DNA of 64,000 nucleotides, taken from contig JAFDXR010000005.1 in NCBI GenBank assembly GCA_018267825.1, positions 248,001 through 312,000 on the forward strand. Direction: 5' to 3'. Below are positions 30,167 through 41,047 of this stretch, piece after piece (position 1 is the stretch's first letter; each line of letters starts with the position of its first letter). The notes below the pieces were generated by a model, which saw nothing but the letters and a program-made list of their open reading frames with translations, ran no database searches and was not told the origin of the DNA. The translations under genes were made by a program, and so were the position numbers. The DNA is from Bacteroidota bacterium (GTDB taxonomy: Bacteria > Bacteroidota > Bacteroidia > B-17B0 > Aurantibacillaceae).

Positions 30167-32530
30167 TTATTTTTTTTCGCTCATCACTTCAAATAATACC
30201 GTCAGGCTTTCACCGGCATCATCTGTCAGGTTCAGGTAATGCTTGCCTTTCGTTGGATTTACTGCCAATTGATGTATATCTTTTGTTGTTCCGGCCAAAG
30301 CCCCGTCGAGGTGCCAGAAAATAGTCCGGCCGGGTTCGCGATGAGCAGCCTCAAAGATAGCCTTTCCCTGTTCGCCGTTCAACTCCGTGGGCACATAAAT
30401 AAGTGTCCCCGATTTGGGATAAATCATTTCCATGTTGCGGCCGGCCTGGGGCGCGCAACCGGGCCTGAATGGCGGCAGAGCAACGTAGGTAGGATTTCTG
30501 CTCTTATAATAATATTCCTGCACGGGCGGTAGTACAAACCAGGGAACCGTGACCATATCGGCAGGCATCACGCAGGCATCTGTAACCTGGTATTGTTTTT
30601 TGGCATCGAGATGCACCCATTTGTGATATGAACACACGGCTGATTTTTCGCTCTGCTTTGGCACCCACTCATATTTTGTTTTCGGACAGATATCAGAAGG
30701 CCGGCAACCGCTGTTCTCACAGACTTTAATATGATTCAGATCGCTCACCGGCATTCTGAACCAATCGGTATATCGGGGTAGCTGTCCGAATACCGAAAAC
30801 AAAACCGGGGCAGCTGTAGAAATACCGGTAAGCCCTGGGCGCCCTTCTCCATCGGCATTTCCAACCCACACGCCTACTACATAATCGGGAGTCACCCCGA
30901 TAGCCCATCCATCGCGAAAACCGAAACTTGTCCCTGTTTTCCAGGCTACTTTCTGCGAACTGCCAAGCCGTTGCCAGCTGGCATCAATATCAGGGCGCGA
31001 TACTTCTGCCATGGCTTCAAAGGTCAGCCAAACCGAACCTGCACGGATGAGTGCATCCTGTTGCTTTTTATTTTCTGCGCTCACATCATGCGCCATATAA
31101 ACCGGTTTCTCCCAATCGCTGCTGCTGTATGTGCCACTTCTGTTGTATCGTGTTAATGTTCTGGCCATAGAACCATACGCCGAACACATATCCCAAAGCT
31201 TCCCCTCTGCTCCGCCGAGGATCAGCGAAAGTCCGTAATCATCGGCACTACGGTCGATCGTCGTCAGGCCCAGCTGTCTCAGCCGGTCCGCAAATTTCTC
31301 GATGCCGTATTGCTGTAGCATCTTCACTGCCGGAATATTCAGACTCCTTGAAAGGGCCCTTTTTGCGGGCACTGCCCCATCGTAGGTCAGGTCGTAATTC
31401 TGTGGCGTATACCCTGCTACCTGTGTAGGCACATCGGCTACCAGGGAGTTTGGCAAAATATCGCCGTCATTAAGCATAAAACCATAGAGGTAAGGTTTCA
31501 GCAAACTGCCCGTACTGCGCGGTGCAGCGATCACATCTACATCTTCGCCATGCGGTTCTTTATCTTTCAGCGGTGTGTTTCCTATATACGAAACCACTTC
31601 ATTTTTCTTCACATCCAGGACCAGCACGGCCATGTTATGAATCTCATTATTTTTGAGAGCCAGCGAACTTCGTTTTACAATTTCCAATAAACGATCCTGC
31701 AGATCTCCGTCAATACTGGTGCTGTATATACGGCCACGCCCGCCTTCCGCCACGCAGCGGTTCAACAGGTGCCGCGCCTTGTTAGGTAATGGAAAAGGTT
31801 TTTGTGGTAAGGGTTCCTGCAAGGCCAGCTGAAGGTCTTCGGTGCTGATACGCTTATTGGCATATAGTTTCCAGAGGAGCCTGTTGCGTTTTTCAAGCAG
31901 TTTCTCCTGGTTCTTACCGGGGTAAATGAGAGAGGGTGCATTGGGAAGAACCGCCAGGGTAGCGCATTCAGCCCACGATAGTTTGTCGGACGTGCGACCG
32001 AAATAACGCCAGGAAGCTGCATCAATCCCTACAACGTTGCTACCGAAAGGTGCATGCGCTGCATACAGGTTAAGGATGTCGTTTTTGCTGTGACTCAACT
32101 CGATGCGGAGGGCCATGATCATTTCCAGAATTTTTTCTGAATACTCCCGTGGTTTGTTTTTCCGGATGAGCCTGATGAGTTGCATGGTAATGGTACTACC
32201 ACCGCTCACAACCTTGCCCGCTTTCTGATTCTGGCGAAAGGCCCGCCAGATCGATGCCGGATTAATACCCTGGTGCGCATAAAAATACTGGTCTTCGAAA
32301 AGCACCACGCATTCCCTGAACTTTGGATTCAATGTCATTCCCTGGGGGAAGCGCCATTGCCCGTCTTCAGAGATTTCGGCAGACAGCAGGTTGCCCTCGC
32401 GGTCTTTTAACAAGGTAGAATAACTATCACTGAAAAGCGGATCGGGAAGGCAACACAAAAACCATAAGCCTAAAGCAAAAATAAGGGTACTGTATATAAT
32501 TCTTTTTATGGTAAAGAATCGCCTGATCAC
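30167..32530 (-). CDS. pbpC: Penicillin-binding protein 1C
   Basis: A 787-residue bifunctional class A enzyme. An N-terminal membrane anchor (IIYSTLIFALGLWFLCCL) is followed by the GT51 glycosyltransferase with FEDQYFYAHQGINP (Glu79) and GGSTITMQLIRL (110-121). The transpeptidase has STGSLLKPY (Ser342, Lys345), SRSLN and KTGTSFG. A C-terminal BiPBP_C-like beta domain follows (CENSGCRPSDICPKT onward). It polymerises and may cross-link glycan strands. In many bacteria pbpC neighbours an alpha-2-macroglobulin gene; none is seen here. The ATG overlaps the stop of the sterol desaturase gene by 4 bases. Confidence 0.95.
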   Translation of the reverse strand: MIRRFFTIKRIIYSTLIFALGLWFLCCLPDPLFSDSYSTLLKDREGNLLSAEISEDGQWRFPQGMTLNPKFRECVVLFEDQYFYAHQGINPASIWRAFRQNQKAGKVVSGGSTITMQLIRLIRKNKPREYSEKILEMIMALRIELSHSKNDILNLYAAHAPFGSNVVGIDAASWRYFGRTSDKLSWAECATLAVLPNAPSLIYPGKNQEKLLEKRNRLLWKLYANKRISTEDLQLALQEPLPQKPFPLPNKARHLLNRCVAEGGRGRIYSTSIDGDLQDRLLEIVKRSSLALKNNEIHNMAVLVLDVKKNEVVSYIGNTPLKDKEPHGEDVDVIAAPRSTGSLLKPYLYGFMLNDGDILPNSLVADVPTQVAGYTPQNYDLTYDGAVPAKRALSRSLNIPAVKMLQQYGIEKFADRLRQLGLTTIDRSADDYGLSLILGGAEGKLWDMCSAYGSMARTLTRYNRSGTYSSSDWEKPVYMAHDVSAENKKQQDALIRAGSVWLTFEAMAEVSRPDIDASWQRLGSSQKVAWKTGTSFGFRDGWAIGVTPDYVVGVWVGNADGEGRPGLTGISTAAPVLFSVFGQLPRYTDWFRMPVSDLNHIKVCENSGCRPSDICPKTKYEWVPKQSEKSAVCSYHKWVHLDAKKQYQVTDACVMPADMVTVPWFVLPPVQEYYYKSRNPTYVALPPFRPGCAPQAGRNMEMIYPKSGTLIYVPTELNGEQGKAIFEAAHREPGRTIFWHLDGALAGTTKDIHQLAVNPTKGKHYLNLTDDAGESLTVLFEVMSEKK

Positions 32531-33426
32531 TTTGGTTGGTTTTGTGCAGCGCGGAGCTCAGCCCTCAGCTGGCTGGAAGTCTTGGTACTTCCATCATGGC
32601 TCCAGCCCGGCGGTCCAAACACATACATAAATTTGTCGCGGATCGAATTCCCTTTTTTCAGGTCCTTTCCGATGGATATCCACTCATGAAAAACCATGAT
32701 AAAAGGATTGTATGTTTCAATGTTTTTGGTAAGCCCGTAACGCACCTCCTCTTCTTCTGCCTGAAAAGTTCCGAAAAGTTTATCCCAGATAATAAGCACC
32801 ATGCCCATATTTTTATCGAGGTATTTTATATTGCTCGCGTGATGCACACGGTGATGCGAAGGTGTTGAAAGAAACCATTCCAGGGGCCCCAGTTTACCGA
32901 TTGTTTTGGTGTGAATGAGGATACCGTATATCTGTGTAGCTGCATACATAAACAGGATATCCAGTGGCTCAAAGCCCACAAGTGCCAATGGAATGAAATA
33001 AATGAAACGGTAGAGCGGCTGAAAAACCGACGAACGGAACCCCACAGTGAGATTGAACTCCTCGGAAGAATGATGTGTGACATGTACGGCCCAGAAAAAA
33101 CGGCAATAATGATCGACACGATGCAGCCAGTAAAACATAAAATCCTGTCCTATCAGCAATGCAAACCAATACACAAAAGGATGAAGACTTTTATCGATGG
33201 TTGCAAAACGGTATTGGAAGAAAAAGCCCAGTACTGCCAGGCACATAACACGTACCAATATATCGAGCCCGAAATTAAGCGCACTCAAATATATATTGGA
33301 TAATATACCTTTTGTAGAATAATACTTCTTATGGTGCACATAGCTCCATATCAGTTCAGTACCGATTACCAGGACATAAACAGGTGTGGTAATCTTTAAA
33401 AGCAGTTCTTCGCGAAAAATTTCCAT
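32527..33426 (-). CDS. Sterol desaturase / fatty acid hydroxylase family protein
   Basis: A 299-residue membrane di-iron protein. Histidine boxes are HRVDH (102-106), HVTHH (115-119) and HHRVHH (about 194-199), set among hydrophobic segments (ILVRVMCLAVLGFFF, VYWFALLIGQDFMFYWL, YRFIYFIPLALVGF). Members hydroxylate or desaturate lipids; the substrate here could be a sphingolipid, carotenoid or fatty acid of the envelope. It begins 13 bases after the giant surface protein gene and overlaps pbpC by 4 bases. Confidence 0.93.
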   Translation of the reverse strand: MEIFREELLLKITTPVYVLVIGTELIWSYVHHKKYYSTKGILSNIYLSALNFGLDILVRVMCLAVLGFFFQYRFATIDKSLHPFVYWFALLIGQDFMFYWLHRVDHYCRFFWAVHVTHHSSEEFNLTVGFRSSVFQPLYRFIYFIPLALVGFEPLDILFMYAATQIYGILIHTKTIGKLGPLEWFLSTPSHHRVHHASNIKYLDKNMGMVLIIWDKLFGTFQAEEEEVRYGLTKNIETYNPFIMVFHEWISIGKDLKKGNSIRDKFMYVFGPPGWSHDGSTKTSSQLRAELRAAQNQPK

Positions 33427-33439
33427 AATGATAAGGACA

Positions 33440-36400
33440 TCAATCTTTCAGCAAAGATAAATATCCTTTTTCAGTCTTGGTTGTATCTTTTATATCTGTA
33501 TAATCAACCAGGTAGAAATAAGTTCCCGAAGGCACAGATGCCCCGGACTTGGTTTTCCCGTCCCAGTAGCCATTGATTCCATCCCATTCGTACATTTTCA
33601 GCCCCCAGCGATCATAAATGGCACAATGCAGGGTTTTAATACCGTTAGACGTGATTTTAAAGAAGTCGTTTACATTATCGGAGTTTGGCGTAAATACGTT
33701 TGGAATCAGGATCGTGGCCTCATTGATAACCCTGACACACTTTACCACCGTATCGGTACAACCGGCACCCGACAATGCCACCAGCTGAATACAGCAATTA
33801 CCGGTATCGGCAGGCGTAATCAGCGGATTGGTTTGTGTGCTTGTACCGCTGCAGAATTGCCATGCATAAGTAGCGGCATTTGCGCTGGTGTTATTTACCT
33901 GAATCGAAGACCCAATCGTCACCACATCGCCCCCCGGCATATTAAAGGATGCTGTAGGATTTGCAAACACAGTGATCGGGATATTCAGCGTATCGGTACT
34001 TGTGCAACCGTTTGTACCTGTGCAAACCGCATAGGCGCTGTAAGTTCCGGCTGTCGGATAGCAATGGTTCAGTGCGGCTCCGGTGGCTCCATCGCCATAA
34101 TGGATATTGATGACCGAAAATGCTGAACTGTTGGAGACAGTAAAGTTTGCACAAAGTGTGCTACAACCGCTGTTTACATCCGAAGTGAGAGATACCGAAG
34201 CCGGTGTTACAACCATTACCTGTATGGTATTAGTCACCTGGCATCCGCCATTATCCCCGGTTACCGAATAAGAGGTCGTTGATGCAGGCGTTACAGTAAT
34301 AACAGACGTATTCTGTCCGCCCGGCAACCACTGGTAATTTGTAGCTCCTGTGGCAGTAAGCGTTGCGCTCTGACCAGCGCATACACTGGTCGCTGAAGCC
34401 GTGAGTGTTAAGGATGGCAGAGGCGTTACCGTTACTGTAGGATTCATTACTGCTGTACATCCGTTGCTCTGGCCGGTTACCGTATATACGGTGGTTGACG
34501 GCGGTGTGACAGAAACGGTATTTGTATTGGCACCTGTAGACCATGTGTATGTAGTAGCACCGGATGCTGTAAGCGTGGCCGTTTGGCCAATGCATATCGC
34601 AGCAGGGTTCACTGTTAAAACAGGTACTGCATTTACAAGCACCTGTGTGGTGGCGCTTGCCGCACAGCTTCCGCTGCTTCCTGTAACACTATATACCGAA
34701 GTAGAAGCAGGTGATACGGCTATAGAAGACGTTGTTGCACCACCGGGAGTCCAGGTGTAACCGGATGCACCGGAAACCGTAAGTGTTGCCGACTGACCGG
34801 TACAAATGGTGGCTGAGTTTACAGAAAGAACCAAAGCCGAAACAACCGATATGTTTCCGGTGGCCTGGGCCGTACATGTGCCGTTGGCTCCAAGTACAGT
34901 ATACGTGGATGATGCTGCAGGGCTATCGGTATATGTAGCTCCGGCAATTGAGCCCGGAGTCCATGTATAGGCTGTAGCACCTGAGGCCGTCAGTGTTCCC
35001 GTTCCGCCCGCACAAATGGTAGCAGAAGCTACCGAAACCGTTGGCGTCTGTGTTACAGAAACGGTGGTTGTTGATACACCTGTACAAAATGCTGTGGCGC
35101 CTGTCACCGTATAAACAGATGTTGTTGCAGGGCTTACTGAAATTGTATTGGTTGTTTGCCCGCCCGGCGACCAGGTATAGTTTGTGGCCCCCGAAACAGT
35201 AAGCGTTGCGTTATCACCTGAACAGATCGCTGCTGATGTAACGGTTAATGTTGGCGGCGAACTGATGGTAACTGTAGATGTTGAACTGCCTGTGCAGGTT
35301 CCTACTGTACCGGTTACTGTATAAATGCTGGTTGAAGCCGGTGTTACGGCCACAGACGAAGCCGCTGTTCCCATGGGCGCCCAGGTATACGTTGTAGCGC
35401 CGGATGCTGTGAGGGTCGCGGTTTGTCCGGCACACACCGTTGGTGAATTGACTGTAATGGAGATACCCGATCCTACTACCATGCTCGCTGTGGCAAGTGC
35501 CGTACAGGTTCCGTTAGCTCCAAGTACCGTGTAAGTTGATGTGGATCCCGGATTTGCCGTGTACGTTGTTCCTGTTGAAGAGCCCGGCGACCATGTGTAT
35601 GATGTGGCACCGGATGCCGTTAATGTACCGGTACCGCCCGGGCAAATGGTTACAGATGCAACCGATACAGTCGGGGTCTGGGTAACAGTTACACTGGTTG
35701 TAACAGTATTGGAACAGAACGCTGTCGCCCCTGTCACGGTGTAGTTTGTGGTAGTGGCCGGTGTAACAACCACACTGGCGGTTGTTTGCCCGCCTGGTGT
35801 CCATGTATAATTCGTTGCGCCCGATACGTTCAAAGTAGCACTGCTTCCCGAACAAACAGAAGCTGATGTCACCGTGAGTGTAGGAGGTGTACTGATGGTA
35901 ACGGTCGATGTACCGCTGCCTGTACATGATCCGTTTGTACCATTCACAGTATAGGTTGTTGTAACACCCGGGTTTACAGCCACGGTAGACGCATTGGTTC
36001 CCATAGGCAACCACGTATACGTCGTAGCTCCGGATGCTGTCAGTGTAGCACTCTGGCCTGCACAAATCGTTGGTGAGTTAACGGTAATGGAAATACTGGA
36101 GCCTACTGTAACACTGGCCGTAGCCTGTGTTGTACAGCTACCATTGGCACCGGTTACAGTATAGGTTGAATTAGATGCAGGAGCAGTAGTATACGTTGAT
36201 CCCGCAACACCACCCGGCGACCAGGTATAGTTTGTAGCCCCACTCGCCGTGAGCGTGGCTGTTTGTCCCGGGCAGATTGTAACAGATGCCACACTTACGG
36301 TTGGTGTGGTAGTCACTGTAACAGTTGTTGTGGCAGTTGATGAACAGGAGCCTGTAGCGCCGGTTACAGTATAGTTTGTTGATACAGTTGGACTCAGGGA

Positions 36401-39181
36401 TACAGAAGCTGTTGTTTGTCCGCCAGGTGACCAGGTGTAGTTTGTAGCTCCGCTGGCTGTAAGTGTAGCAGTATTGCCTGAACAGATCGAGGCATTGGTA
36501 ACCGTAAGGCTTGGTAAAGCATTAACCGTTACCGTGCTTACCTTAACCGAAGAACAGGTTCCGTTGCTCCCGGTGACTGTGTAATTGGCTGAAGCTCCCG
36601 GGGTAATAACAACACTTGAGGTTGTTTGTCCGCCCGGAGTCCAGGTATAGGCTGTTGCGCCTGATGCTGTCAGTGTAGTGGTTTGTCCGGCACAAAGAGT
36701 GGGCGAATTCACGGTAAGCGTTACACCAGGTGCAACGGTAACCGAACCGTTAGCCTGCGCTGTACAGGTGCCGGTAGCTCCAAGCACCGTATAATTGGCT
36801 GAGGACGCCGGTGAAACAGTAAATGTAGATCCTGTGGATCCGCCCGGTGACCAGGTATAGTTGGTGGCCCCGGATGCTGTCAGGGTGGTTGTCTGGCCCG
36901 GACATATCGTAGCCGAACTTGCCGTAACAGTAGGGGTTGTAACCACATTTACGGTAGCTGTTGTAGAATTTGTACAGGTACCATTGGCCCCGGTTATTGT
37001 ATAGGTAGTTGTTACTGTTGGCGAAACAGCCACTGTAGCCGTTGTTTGTCCGCCCGGTGCCCAGGTATAATTGGCAGCTCCTGTGGCTGTTAACGTGGTG
37101 GTGCTTCCGATACAGATGGTTGAGCTTGCCACTGCAACGGTAGGTTGCGGCAATACGGTAACCGTTGTGGTCTTGGTCCCTGTGCAGGAGCCCGCAGAGC
37201 CAGATACGGTATAAACCGTTGTGGAAGCAGGGGTTACGGAAATAGATCCTGTATTGGCTCCACCCGGACTCCAGGTAAATGTAGTAATACCGGTAGCGGT
37301 GAGGGTTGTGGTTTGGCCGGCGCAAATCGTGGGTGAGTTAATGGAGATACTGGCACCCGTTCCAACAGTAATAACGATTGGCAAACGGAATGTTCCGGGA
37401 CAGGAACCGGCATAAACGGTGTATGTACCCGCTGCTGTATAGGTTGGCGTCGTGTATGTGTTTCCGCTGGCGATAATGGCTCCGCCGGTAGCTGTGTTAT
37501 ACCAGTCGATGGTAGCAGCCGTATTGGTTGATGCGGCTGTCAGTGTGGTTGACTGGCCGGTACAAAGTGTCTGGCTGGCCGATGTCGTTAATGAATAAAC
37601 AGTTGTTGTTTTAATCTGATTCTTAAGTCCTACATCACCGGAGCTTGCGCCGTTCGGCGGAAATGCAGAGGAAAATGCCGTGGCGTTGGTTGTGCCGTTT
37701 GTACCACCATTTACACTCTGGGTAAATGCACTTCCGTTAGAGGCAATATATCCACCACCACCACCACCACCGGGGCCCTGCCCTTCGCTGGTTGTAGCGC
37801 CGGTTATAACCTGGTTACCGCCATTGCCGCCATTGGCAAGGGCTGTGATCGCCGAAACGGTTCCTAAACTTTCAAGAACAATGGTTCCACCACCACCGGC
37901 TCCACCGGCTCCATCAATACCCTGTGTCGGATTCGAAATATTAAAAGATCCAAACGCATTACCGCCATTATTTCCATTGGCTGTGATCGTACCTGTTCCG
38001 GAAACTGTTCCATAATTGAGCAGGTAAATAATCCCGCCACCGTTTCCACCTGAGCAGGCCCCGGAACCGTTAGATTGGCCGGAGGTCATGTGGCCGGAGC
38101 CACCGCCGCCGCCCATAAATATTTTTCCGGAAGAATAATCCATTGGATGGCCGCCAAAACCTCCGTAATTCGGACGTTTGTAGCTACCCCATTGGGCCAT
38201 ATTCGGCCCTATTGTATTCGGGCTAACCGATGTTGTTGTTGATGTGCCGTAACCACCTTTTCCTCCGCCACTGGATACGACAGATGCACGTCCGGGCCAC
38301 TCCAGGTTAAAGGCTGTTGCATAAGCCGTATTACAAATGCCATAACCATTCCATCCACTGATATTACCGGCGTTGGCACCACCGCCACCACCACAGTTAT
38401 TGGCATTACCACCGCCACCGCCATTAGCCGGTGCACCTTTACATTGCTTGCCAAGGGTATCGATTGCAAGCGCGTTGTTTAAACGGTCGCTTCCGATTCC
38501 TTCTCCTTTTTCTGCCCCGTCATTCGGGTTTTTGGTTGCAAAGTTTCCGTTACCTGTACCCCCATTCCCAACAGCTACACCCCCCCGGAAACCGAGCCCG
38601 TTGGCATTGATCGTACCTCCTGAATTTACCACGGTATTACCATCGACCTCAGCACTAAGAATACCACCTATTGTACCATTCCAGGTATCGGTTGTAAGTA
38701 CACCTCCACTATTAACGGTAAGACTGTTATAGCGTGGAACACGTACTACCTCTACTTTTCCGGCAGCGCTGTATGAATATTTCAAACCGCATACCAACTC
38801 AATTTGTGTAGAAGATATCACCGATTTTACTTCGGCAAACTCGTAATTGCCGCAGCTTCCATAAGAATAAATATTACCGTATGTACTGTCCGGAGCCCAT
38901 ACAGGAACAGGACTGAGTTTCATGAGTGCGCCCTGCATCTGGATTACCATAACGAGATCGCCCGCCGCCAGGTTTCCGGAGAATCTGGCATTTGCGTTCA
39001 GCGAACTGGCTGCCACAGTAATCGTATTGGTACCGGCAGCGGCGTCTGCTGTTAATGATGTAAATTCATTGATTTTGGTATTGGCGGCACTAACCACTTT
39101 AGCACCATCTTTTCCTTTTTGGGCGAAGGTCTGAAACCCAAAAGCTATGCAAATAAACAGGATGTATAATCTGGTTGTCAT
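33440..39181 (-). CDS. Giant repetitive surface protein with gliding-motility-type (T9SS type B) C-terminal domain
   Basis: 1913 residues. After a signal peptide (MTTRLYILFICIAFGFQTFAQ) and a region with VVMVIQMQGAL comes a glycine-rich stretch (about 190-530) with many GGGGG blocks. Then follow about 16 Ig-like modules of roughly 71 residues (about 533-1660), each with the pattern ICxGQxxTLTASGATxYTWxPGG ... YTVTGxxGxC. After these come PKD-like segments (CANFTVSNSSAFSVINIHYG, YAWQFCSGTSTQTNPLI) and the terminal VFTPNSDNVNDFFKI ... IYDRWGLKMYEWDG ... SGTYFYLVDY, the gliding-motility-associated C-terminal sorting domain. It is probably exported by the type IX system and attached to the cell surface as an adhesin. 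Confidence 0.95.
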   Translation of the reverse strand: MTTRLYILFICIAFGFQTFAQKGKDGAKVVSAANTKINEFTSLTADAAAGTNTITVAASSLNANARFSGNLAAGDLVMVIQMQGALMKLSPVPVWAPDSTYGNIYSYGSCGNYEFAEVKSVISSTQIELVCGLKYSYSAAGKVEVVRVPRYNSLTVNSGGVLTTDTWNGTIGGILSAEVDGNTVVNSGGTINANGLGFRGGVAVGNGGTGNGNFATKNPNDGAEKGEGIGSDRLNNALAIDTLGKQCKGAPANGGGGGNANNCGGGGGANAGNISGWNGYGICNTAYATAFNLEWPGRASVVSSGGGKGGYGTSTTTSVSPNTIGPNMAQWGSYKRPNYGGFGGHPMDYSSGKIFMGGGGGSGHMTSGQSNGSGACSGGNGGGIIYLLNYGTVSGTGTITANGNNGGNAFGSFNISNPTQGIDGAGGAGGGGTIVLESLGTVSAITALANGGNGGNQVITGATTSEGQGPGGGGGGGYIASNGSAFTQSVNGGTNGTTNATAFSSAFPPNGASSGDVGLKNQIKTTTVYSLTTSASQTLCTGQSTTLTAASTNTAATIDWYNTATGGAIIASGNTYTTPTYTAAGTYTVYAGSCPGTFRLPIVITVGTGASISINSPTICAGQTTTLTATGITTFTWSPGGANTGSISVTPASTTVYTVSGSAGSCTGTKTTTVTVLPQPTVAVASSTICIGSTTTLTATGAANYTWAPGGQTTATVAVSPTVTTTYTITGANGTCTNSTTATVNVVTTPTVTASSATICPGQTTTLTASGATNYTWSPGGSTGSTFTVSPASSANYTVLGATGTCTAQANGSVTVAPGVTLTVNSPTLCAGQTTTLTASGATAYTWTPGGQTTSSVVITPGASANYTVTGSNGTCSSVKVSTVTVNALPSLTVTNASICSGNTATLTASGATNYTWSPGGQTTASVSLSPTVSTNYTVTGATGSCSSTATTTVTVTTTPTVSVASVTICPGQTATLTASGATNYTWSPGGVAGSTYTTAPASNSTYTVTGANGSCTTQATASVTVGSSISITVNSPTICAGQSATLTASGATTYTWLPMGTNASTVAVNPGVTTTYTVNGTNGSCTGSGTSTVTISTPPTLTVTSASVCSGSSATLNVSGATNYTWTPGGQTTASVVVTPATTTNYTVTGATAFCSNTVTTSVTVTQTPTVSVASVTICPGGTGTLTASGATSYTWSPGSSTGTTYTANPGSTSTYTVLGANGTCTALATASMVVGSGISITVNSPTVCAGQTATLTASGATTYTWAPMGTAASSVAVTPASTSIYTVTGTVGTCTGSSTSTVTISSPPTLTVTSAAICSGDNATLTVSGATNYTWSPGGQTTNTISVSPATTSVYTVTGATAFCTGVSTTTVSVTQTPTVSVASATICAGGTGTLTASGATAYTWTPGSIAGATYTDSPAASSTYTVLGANGTCTAQATGNISVVSALVLSVNSATICTGQSATLTVSGASGYTWTPGGATTSSIAVSPASTSVYSVTGSSGSCAASATTQVLVNAVPVLTVNPAAICIGQTATLTASGATTYTWSTGANTNTVSVTPPSTTVYTVTGQSNGCTAVMNPTVTVTPLPSLTLTASATSVCAGQSATLTATGATNYQWLPGGQNTSVITVTPASTTSYSVTGDNGGCQVTNTIQVMVVTPASVSLTSDVNSGCSTLCANFTVSNSSAFSVINIHYGDGATGAALNHCYPTAGTYSAYAVCTGTNGCTSTDTLNIPITVFANPTASFNMPGGDVVTIGSSIQVNNTSANAATYAWQFCSGTSTQTNPLITPADTGNCCIQLVALSGAGCTDTVVKCVRVINEATILIPNVFTPNSDNVNDFFKITSNGIKTLHCAIYDRWGLKMYEWDGINGYWDGKTKSGASVPSGTYFYLVDYTDIKDTTKTEKGYLSLLKD
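34200..37590 (-). repeat. Tandem Ig-like module array with three-module higher-order repeat
   Basis: About 16 modules of roughly 212 bp inside the giant gene. Modules fall into three types by their first strand: A (TPTVSVASVTICPG), B (ISITVNSPTxCAGQ) and C (PPTLTVTSAxxCSG). The order A-B-C recurs about four times with a period near 630 bp; A-type module starts lie near 36911, 36287, 35651 and 35023. This indicates growth of the array by duplication of triple units. Confidence 0.85.
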
Positions 39182-39244: not shown

Positions 39245-40504
39245 TTATTTAATTTCATTGAGTAAAACACCTATGTACTCTGAGTAATTCCAGGGCTCGT
39301 TCTGATACAGACATCCATCAAAACTGAAGATGAATTTTAAATTCAGGATGGAAAACAGCGCCAATATTACCAATGACCACTTCAGTTTTTGGCGTGAGAA
39401 CCAGCAAACCGGAATGAAGAGCAAAGGCACAATATCGTTTATGGCGCGGTGACCAAAACCACATCCGAGTGAAGTGCTCCACCAACTGCTGTATATAAGT
39501 ATATATACGCAAATGCCTACAAAAACAGGTACCCGCAGTGCATGACGCTGGCCTGCATACAATACCAGGATGAACAATAAAGCCGGGTAATAAATGAAGA
39601 GACCATTATTTGAGGAAAACAGTAATTCTAACAGGTGCTGCCCGGAAAATGAGGTGAATCCTTCATTTTTGTAGGGCTGTACAAACATATTTCCAAAAGC
39701 ATAACGATAATATAACAGTTGCGGCAAAACGATAAGCACACCGGAAATCAATGCCATCAGGAACCAGCGTGTTTTCATCCATTGCCTGATAGCAGCCTGT
39801 GTTTCTTTGGGCAATACAAAAATTGAAAAAGGAAGAAAGACCAGGACAAAAACCGCATCAATGGGCCGTATGATGACATAGAGAGCTGCCCATAAAAGCA
39901 TAAAGAAAAGATGACGTGCATGTCGTGTACCAAGCCATGTATCTGCCTGGTATATAATGGCTGCAAGCACACAAAATGAATAGATGTGTGACATGCCTCC
40001 CTCGAAAATACCGTAATAAAAAATACCGGTACAGCAGATCATAAAGGCCAGCAGAAGCGCAGACACAGATAATGACAGACGCCGGCTGAAAAACAGAAAC
40101 ATAAAATACATGCCAAGCGTGAGGTAAAAGCAGCCGGCTATATCAACCGACCGGAGATAGGGTTCGGAGTAGCCTGTTTTATCGGCAGCAAAGGCATGTG
40201 CCGTAAACCAGAAAGGACTTTGCAGAAGTGCCACACCATAGGGATATTTGGTTATGATGGTTTGCCGCGTCGTATCAAAATAAAATCCGTTGCCTGTGAG
40301 TGAGTCTGCATGGGCTAAGAAGCGTGATGCATCGAGTTTATAGATAAAGGTTGCCGGGAGATAAACATTATATCCTGCTTTATCGGCCCAGAGCTCTGCA
40401 TGGTAGGTAAAAGGTTTTGCATGACTGTGGCGGTTTAACGACAAAAACACAAAAAGGCCGAATAGGATCAGGAAGACCAATCGTATTTTGAGTTTGGAAG
40501 GCAT
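39245..40504 (-). CDS. Multi-pass membrane protein, GT-C glycosyltransferase-like
   Basis: 419 residues from ATG 40504 (MPSKLKIRLVFLILFGLF). The frame is open to 40564, but that extension runs through the terminator at 40524-40558 and is rejected. About eleven hydrophobic segments are visible, with an early non-membrane segment YHAELWADKAGYNVYLPATF, which resembles the first loop of ArnT/PMT-like GT-C proteins, where an acidic residue activates the acceptor. Such proteins transfer sugars from lipid carriers. No family name is certain. It lies 63 bases upstream of the giant surface protein. Confidence 0.75.
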   Translation of the reverse strand: MPSKLKIRLVFLILFGLFVFLSLNRHSHAKPFTYHAELWADKAGYNVYLPATFIYKLDASRFLAHADSLTGNGFYFDTTRQTIITKYPYGVALLQSPFWFTAHAFAADKTGYSEPYLRSVDIAGCFYLTLGMYFMFLFFSRRLSLSVSALLLAFMICCTGIFYYGIFEGGMSHIYSFCVLAAIIYQADTWLGTRHARHLFFMLLWAALYVIIRPIDAVFVLVFLPFSIFVLPKETQAAIRQWMKTRWFLMALISGVLIVLPQLLYYRYAFGNMFVQPYKNEGFTSFSGQHLLELLFSSNNGLFIYYPALLFILVLYAGQRHALRVPVFVGICVYILIYSSWWSTSLGCGFGHRAINDIVPLLFIPVCWFSRQKLKWSLVILALFSILNLKFIFSFDGCLYQNEPWNYSEYIGVLLNEIK

Positions 40505-40523
40505 GCTTTGGAAAATTACACAT

Positions 40524-40558
40524 AAAAAAAATCCCCTCAAATGCTTGAGAGGATTTTT
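40524..40558. terminator. Bidirectional terminator hairpin
   Basis: ATCCCCTCAA and TTGAGAGGAT form a 10-bp stem with one mismatch and a 4-base loop. A seven-A run on the left (T on the minus strand) and TTTTT on the right allow use in both directions. It ends the gene at 40610-41047 on the minus strand. Confidence 0.8.
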
Positions 40559-40609
40559 AAGCAACTTAAAGTTTAACCCTTAATTATAACCCTTACAGCT
40601 GCCGTATTT

Positions 40610-41047
40610 TTAGTTGAGCTTGAACGGAGGAATTTTTCCTTCTTTCATCAACTGAACACTTTTTTTCTTATGGTCTTCAAAGCTACCAAATGCCAGGGCA
40701 TCCAGCATCTCTTCGCGTGTCATATTTGGATTACCAAATTGTTTACGAATATCGTTTGAGCAACGGTCCACGTATTTTTCAAATTTTGATGGCGCCCAAA
40801 GGTATTCCTTCTTCACGGTTTCTTTCTCAAGCTTGAACTCCTCAGGCAAGCCACCTTCGATTTTTGATTTGATCTCCAATCCCTCGTACGACTTCGGCAA
40901 TTGGCGGTTATCAAATAAAAATGGTTTTGAAATCATGATCACATGTTTCTTACGTTTTGGGTCGATCATGGACAGGCCCTCAATACGCAGACCTTTTTTC
41001 TTAAGTCCACCATATTTACTTTCAAAACTCTTTAGTATCTCGAACAT
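40610..41047 (-). CDS. Hypothetical protein, unrecognised
   Basis: 145 residues, soluble, rich in Lys and Glu, no signal peptide. The N-terminal half (MFEILKSFESKYGGLKKKGL, KRKKHVIMISKPFLFDNRQL) looks alpha/beta. The C-terminal half has charged helices with NMTREEMLDALAFGSFEDH. No motif points to an enzyme. It is flanked by a 198-base gap upstream and a terminator downstream, so it is expressed alone. The coding character is good (long open frame and terminator position). Confidence 0.65.
   Translation of the reverse strand: MFEILKSFESKYGGLKKKGLRIEGLSMIDPKRKKHVIMISKPFLFDNRQLPKSYEGLEIKSKIEGGLPEEFKLEKETVKKEYLWAPSKFEKYVDRCSNDIRKQFGNPNMTREEMLDALAFGSFEDHKKKSVQLMKEGKIPPFKLN

Follow-up and report, generated by a model that had tools for sequence, protein, structure and literature searches.

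Within the 64,000-nucleotide window analyzed here, one open frame on the minus strand (33440-39181) specifies a surface protein of 1,913 amino acids; all features named below lie on the same strand. A signal peptide, judged by eye from the sequence, occupies residues 1-20 (39122-39181) and is followed by an N-terminal glycine-rich head resembling AgmC_N (residues 21-535; 37577-39121), which was delimited with the NCBIfam model, alignments and a structural model and includes a small beta-barrel part (residues 37-150; 38732-39073). The stalk opens with an Ig_7 domain (residues 534-606; 37364-37582; PF19081, 48.5 bits against a cut-off of 27.3) and continues with twelve 70-residue modules in the order A-B-C repeated four times (residues 606-1445; 34847-37366), as seen from spacing, identity, class models and a tree. 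A thirteenth, A-like module (residues 1446-1515; 34637-34846), placed by a class-model margin of 4 bits, and modules 14 and 15, without clear class (residues 1516-1657; 34211-34636), complete the array. The C-terminal part combines a stretch with PKD-like patterns, recognized by eye and without a Pfam match at E 0.01 (residues 1658-1824; 33710-34210), with a type B sorting domain of the type IX secretion system (T9SS; residues 1825-1910; 33452-33709). A fatty acid hydroxylase gene (32527-33426) lies 13 nt downstream. A Pfam scan of the whole protein at E 0.01 returned CHU_C and Ig_7 only. Among the stalk units, the domain at residues 534-606 alone reaches Ig_7, and the predicted model of one module triple gave no usable fold (pLDDT 37.6); an Ig-like fold of the 70-residue modules is putative.

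The initial annotation had described the stalk as modules of about 71 residues falling into three subtypes that recur in fixed order with a period near 630 bp, some four times. The recurring modules are real, but their unit is 70 residues: anchors from residue 617 to residue 1527 are spaced by exactly 70 amino acids, with the last spacing alone measuring 71. The fixed order of three subtypes is borne out by mean pairwise identities among the 15 modules of 50.2, 50.1, 63.3, 49.8, 49.8 and 56.8% at offsets 1 to 6, i.e., 63% at a distance of three modules versus 50% at one, two or four. Autocorrelation of the array reaches 0.464 at 70, 0.460 at 140, 0.594 at 210 and 0.521 at 420 in the protein, and 0.517 at 210, 0.583 at 630 and 0.547 at 1260 in the DNA, over a background mean of 0.253. 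Protein and DNA thus both carry extra identity at the triple distance, the absence of which had been named beforehand as the result that would speak against the pattern. Class models assigned modules 1-12 to ABC four times over, module 13 weakly to A, and modules 14 and 15 to no clear class. The modules are rich in Thr, Ser, Gly and Ala, which brings any pair to about 50% identity, and one could therefore suspect that chance or low-complexity composition produced the triple pattern. This is hardly credible. Only 6 of 20,000 random module orders matched the period-three excess (allowing for a free choice among periods 2-7 gives p = 0.003), the ABC order is followed in two held-out genomes, and phase labels cluster on a module tree. 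The three-class repeat stalk on this T9SS surface protein is real and clear; it belongs to a known general kind, of which it is an unusually clear case.

The glycine-rich front, also recognized in the initial annotation, is a conserved domain and not a low-complexity linker. In 20 homologues, residues 21-535 are 42-72% identical and dozens of glycines never vary; AlphaFold2 modeled the domain with a pLDDT of 83.3 and a pTM of 0.90. As a control for composition, the head profile at E 10 matched 0 of 46 reversed or shuffled sequences versus 23 of 23 real ones. NCBIfam AgmC_N (NF047640) matches the head with 142.2 bits (E 2e-41), below the equivalog threshold of 275 bits; across the phylum this model hits 35 of 296 genomes, none of them above the cut-off. 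The head is homologous to the glycine-rich N-terminal region of AgmC, a protein named for Myxococcus gliding, but differs from it in falling below the family cut-off and in being followed by an array of modules with a T9SS tail. Literature searches on AgmC returned nothing relevant to its role among the records listed. In VIA-align comparisons, residues 37-150 (17-130 of the model) are similar to the small beta-barrels found in phage tail proteins and depolymerases (9n71_A, Z 11.2, rmsd 1.7 over 77; 7w1c_A, Z 10.5, rmsd 3.9 over 87). A PDB fold search with the whole head gave weak or local matches only and no good solved counterpart of the glycine-rich rest, a result that does not by itself establish a new fold; likewise, no solved structure matched the head profile at E 1. 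Among predicted structures, a protein from an algal virus matches best (TM 0.48 of the query, E 2.6e-13), and matches to the model also include predicted proteins from Bathycoccus and Ostreococcus viruses, Orpheovirus and Pandoravirus. A viral origin of the head gained no support at the sequence level, relatives being found neither in IMG/VR (pattern scan and tblastn) nor in phage records. The closest named records with this head are metagenome-assembled genomes (MAGs) labelled Flavobacteriales, Bacteroidetes and Fluviicola; others are one Myxococcales MAG and two cyanobacterial records.

The type IX tail noted at the opposite end proved equally genuine. Its type B signal exceeds the curated cut-offs of both CHU_C (PF13585; 76.1 versus 27 bits) and TIGR04131 (51.5 versus 35 bits). 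The host genome, searched as 4.8 Mb in 33 contigs, encodes core T9SS components, among them SprA (2,411 bits) and two GldM proteins above cut-off (291 bits given for GldM), as well as PorP/SprF family proteins (18 of 20 places above cut-off) and TIGR04131 type B tails (55 of 57 places above cut-off). For Por_Secre_tail, 150 places were scored among 230 candidates; together with the 57 type B places, this makes up a very large T9SS secretome. No PorP/SprF shuttle gene occurs within 100 kb on the contig, the nearest lying about 107 kb away, and the surface protein is therefore a putative orphan type B substrate. As far as PMC12618676 describes them, the type B substrates of F. johnsoniae (SprB, Fjoh_3952 and the orphans Fjoh_1123, Fjoh_1720 and Fjoh_4934) resemble our protein in combining a type B tail with a predicted adhesin. 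The lack of an adjacent shuttle gene recalls 3 of the 12 F. johnsoniae type B substrates in that account, where three orphans share one distant shuttle. Those substrates are unlike the protein studied here, which is without SprB repeats and has a different head.

An SprB-like mobile adhesin, carried along the cell by the gliding machinery, would share the type B tail with SprB, and both the gliding-type T9SS genes in the genome and the kinship of the head to AgmC, named for gliding, accord with this idea. We nonetheless regard it as unlikely. The SprB repeat (PF13573) is absent from the protein in the Pfam scan at E 0.01, an sprF-like gene is not adjacent, and type B tails also direct static adhesins, at least as reported in PMC12618676.

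Homologues were sought in 60 genomes including this one, none of the other 59 being of the same genus, and 20 homologous regions were fetched for comparison. The fatty acid hydroxylase gene directly follows the surface protein gene in 10 of these 20 regions, across genera. Counted in the gene copy adjoining the hydroxylase gene, the array holds 15 modules here and in G030, 14 in G025, 13 in G013, 12 in G021, 11 in both G007 and G014, 10 in G005, and 9 in each of G026, G029 and G036. Applied to the first ten modules, class models built from this protein give ABCABCABCA for G025 (10 of 10 in phase; shuffle p 0.0006) and ABCBBCABCA for G013 (9 of 10 in phase; p 0.0076); they detected no significant ABC order in 8 of the ten other head-bearing proteins run through them. 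With 13 phased modules here and 10 in G025, these two arrays differ by one triple. A per-array test of 30 arrays found period three significant only in the present array (G000; 0.003), G029 (0.008), G025 (0.013) and G013 (0.027). A maximum-likelihood tree was built with 42 phased modules of these four species of two genera, which were picked since the pattern is visible there. On it, the phase label has to change 3 times, against a minimum of 2 and a shuffled mean of 20.3; with 70 columns, many forks of this tree are unresolved. Early modules cluster across species (e.g., module 4 of G013, G025 and G029), whereas later modules pair within species at a distance of three, namely 9 with 12 and 7 with 10 in G000, 6 with 9 and 7 with 10 in G013, and 6 with 9 in G025. 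The A, B and C classes are thus older than the split of the two genera.

Recent events in the same register are visible in the DNA of sister species. G013 carries a tract of about 270 bp at an offset of 636 bp with 85-97% identity in 60-bp windows, preceded by about 30% identity and followed by 65-75% falling to about 25%. G025 has high-identity tracts at 627 and 1,254 bp, i.e., three and six modules. Because of these tracts and the within-species pairs three modules apart, duplication or conversion in register of three must have recurred. High-identity tracts in G030, G004 and G002 lie at single-module offsets, and modules 3-6 of G030 (L040), with 90-94% amino acid identity, bear witness to expansion by single modules. 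These four modules are merely 41-62% identical at four-fold degenerate sites, which suggests strong protein-level constraint following single-module duplication.

The array in the present genome is in a different state. Tandem Repeats Finder reports no array, the longest exact direct repeat in the frame is 23 bp, and no 120-bp window reaches 85% identity at any offset tried. At four-fold degenerate sites, modules three apart are 34.5% identical versus 30.0% expected from codon usage; the best module pair (7 and 10) shares 79% of amino acids, 72% of nucleotides and 50% of such sites, and these sites are 28-50% identical in the best six pairs. The protein pattern has been kept and DNA identity has decayed; therefore, the array does not look recombinogenic now, and turnover by triples is a fossil in this genome. 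Assembly collapse among the visible copies is unlikely because they differ by at least 28% in DNA, an argument that identical copies dropped by the assembler would escape. The expansion by units of three proposed in the initial annotation thus survives as history, with classes common to two genera and tracts at the triple offset, while the copy-number variation between strains that it implied finds no support in the decayed array here.

A currently length-variable adhesin of the Periscope type, in which recombination between near-identical repeats makes stalk length vary from strain to strain, would accommodate the spread of 9 to 15 modules over this genome and the ten others with the hydroxylase neighbour, as well as the high-identity tracts in G013, G025, G030, G004, G002 and G054. 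The synonymous decay, the nucleotide divergence of even the best pair, and the lack of any 85% tract over 120 bp or any tandem array make this reading improbable for the present protein. Literature searches on repeat-number variation, higher-order adhesin repeats and concerted evolution in T9SS repeat proteins brought up only the Periscope paper as relevant (PMC8201768). To the extent covered by that source, Periscope proteins (SasG, Rib, Sgo_0707) likewise have a stalk of tandem domains, with an N-terminal domain in front of it, an anchoring signal at the C-terminus and short junctions that often contain proline; the present protein has a conserved N-terminal head, a candidate functional domain, and a C-terminal sorting tail. 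The Periscope screen, as described there, required tandem repeats of more than 50 residues with at least 80% identity. The repeats studied here differ in staying at or below 79% identity in protein and 72% in DNA, in their three-class unit and in the T9SS tail.

Whether three is a general unit of such arrays depends strongly on the sample. Among 30 arrays that were either hits to this protein or its homologues, identity at offset 3 exceeds that at offset 1 in 27, but this sample is biased, having been chosen by similarity to an ABC-ordered protein and containing many mutually orthologous arrays. Arrays with fewer than eight modules were left out of this comparison and of the per-array test (G001, G002, G003, G024 and G054, 5 of the 23 head-bearing proteins), and region L092 yielded none. 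An order-blind sample, obtained with a single-module query, comprised 38 regions and 17 contiguous runs of at least eight modules; here, identity at offset 3 is above that at offset 1 in 8 of the 17 runs, and the strongest offset is 1, 2, 3, 4 or 5 depending on the run. A general three-module rule was rejected on this contrast. Arrays of the same module type, in this genome and in relatives, occur with units of two, three and five, few being as regular as those of this protein, G013, G025 and G029. One 2,280-residue frame (L124, G007:C2:298001-317500) holds a five-module supra-repeat with an offset-5 excess of 20.4% (z 8.1) and pairs up to 100% identical. Two further families show a two-module unit (L118, G455:C30; z 3.4) and a three-module unit (L138, G425:C35; z 3.9).

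The junctions between modules offer a possible reason for keeping the register. A proline marks most module starts. In this protein, the A-phase modules (1, 4, 7, 10 and 13) all lack it, whereas each of the eight B and C modules among 1-13 has it. In four species taken together, it is found at 25 of 26 B and C starts but at 4 of 16 A starts of phased modules. Selection could accordingly keep the triple as one mechanical unit, in which each turn has two junctions stiffened by proline and a hinge without it and high-identity copies are held non-adjacent, a possibility that we consider unlikely. Besides the proline contrast, the likeness of the copies in protein despite synonymous decay favors it. 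The contrast weakens, however, when class is taken from module bodies in ten other proteins (A 30/55, B 20/22, C 21/24; i.e., 41/46 for B and C together; the modules counted are not independent), and the order-blind runs show no preference for three; therefore, triple units are not a general feature of such arrays, and the same holds for avoidance of similar neighbours. A broader version, in which A-B-C would have stayed in register as such a three-domain mechanical unit from a time before at least two genera separated, with stalk length changing by whole units and near-identical domains kept from lying side by side, is rather unlikely.

We think it probable that the protein is a T9SS-exported stalk presenting an N-terminal head, grown by ancestral A-B-C duplication and now effectively fixed in this genome. 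The architecture fits a candidate length-variable adhesin. Module order, the classes and their common ancestry, the loss of DNA identity, the tail type, the homology of the head and the T9SS components are direct results, and export, stalk shape, head function and adhesion are inferred. The signal peptide would direct the protein to the periplasm, and the type B tail would mediate passage through SprA and subsequent hand-over to a PorP/SprF-like shuttle whose gene lies at another place in the genome. A long stalk of about 16 small modules would then keep the glycine-rich head at a distance from the cell, where the head is proposed to bind some surface or polymer. In an ancestor, the stalk would have grown by duplication of the three-module block A-B-C. 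Sister lineages presumably underwent independent triple-register recombination, which chiefly affected phased modules in the middle of the array and towards its C-terminal end, and the first modules beside the head tended to hold their position. In the present genome, the copies would have diverged in DNA with the protein pattern kept, leaving the array effectively fixed. The missing ABC order in most other head-bearing proteins (8 of 10), the single-module expansion in G030 and the distance to the nearest shuttle gene on the contig all weigh against this account.

Module identity, phylogeny and synonymous decay together separate how a stalk was constructed, whether it is still changing and how much its register matters. 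Since sister species hold the array in recently homogenised and decayed states, the rate of triple-unit turnover should be measurable. The conserved head, which occurs in Bacteroidota, the Myxococcales MAG and the two cyanobacterial records, is more promising than the stalk as a guide to function.

Beyond the surface protein gene, a 14-pair terminator-like hairpin (40527-40558) falls within the predicted start of the open frame 39245-40564; that start has therefore probably been mispredicted, and the hairpin may precede the beginning of a transcription unit. A 145-residue protein (40610-41047), for which neither Pfam nor NCBIfam gives a match at E 0.01, stands out as far more conserved than its neighbours: identity is 86-89% across five regions from another genus, and one more region shows 67%.
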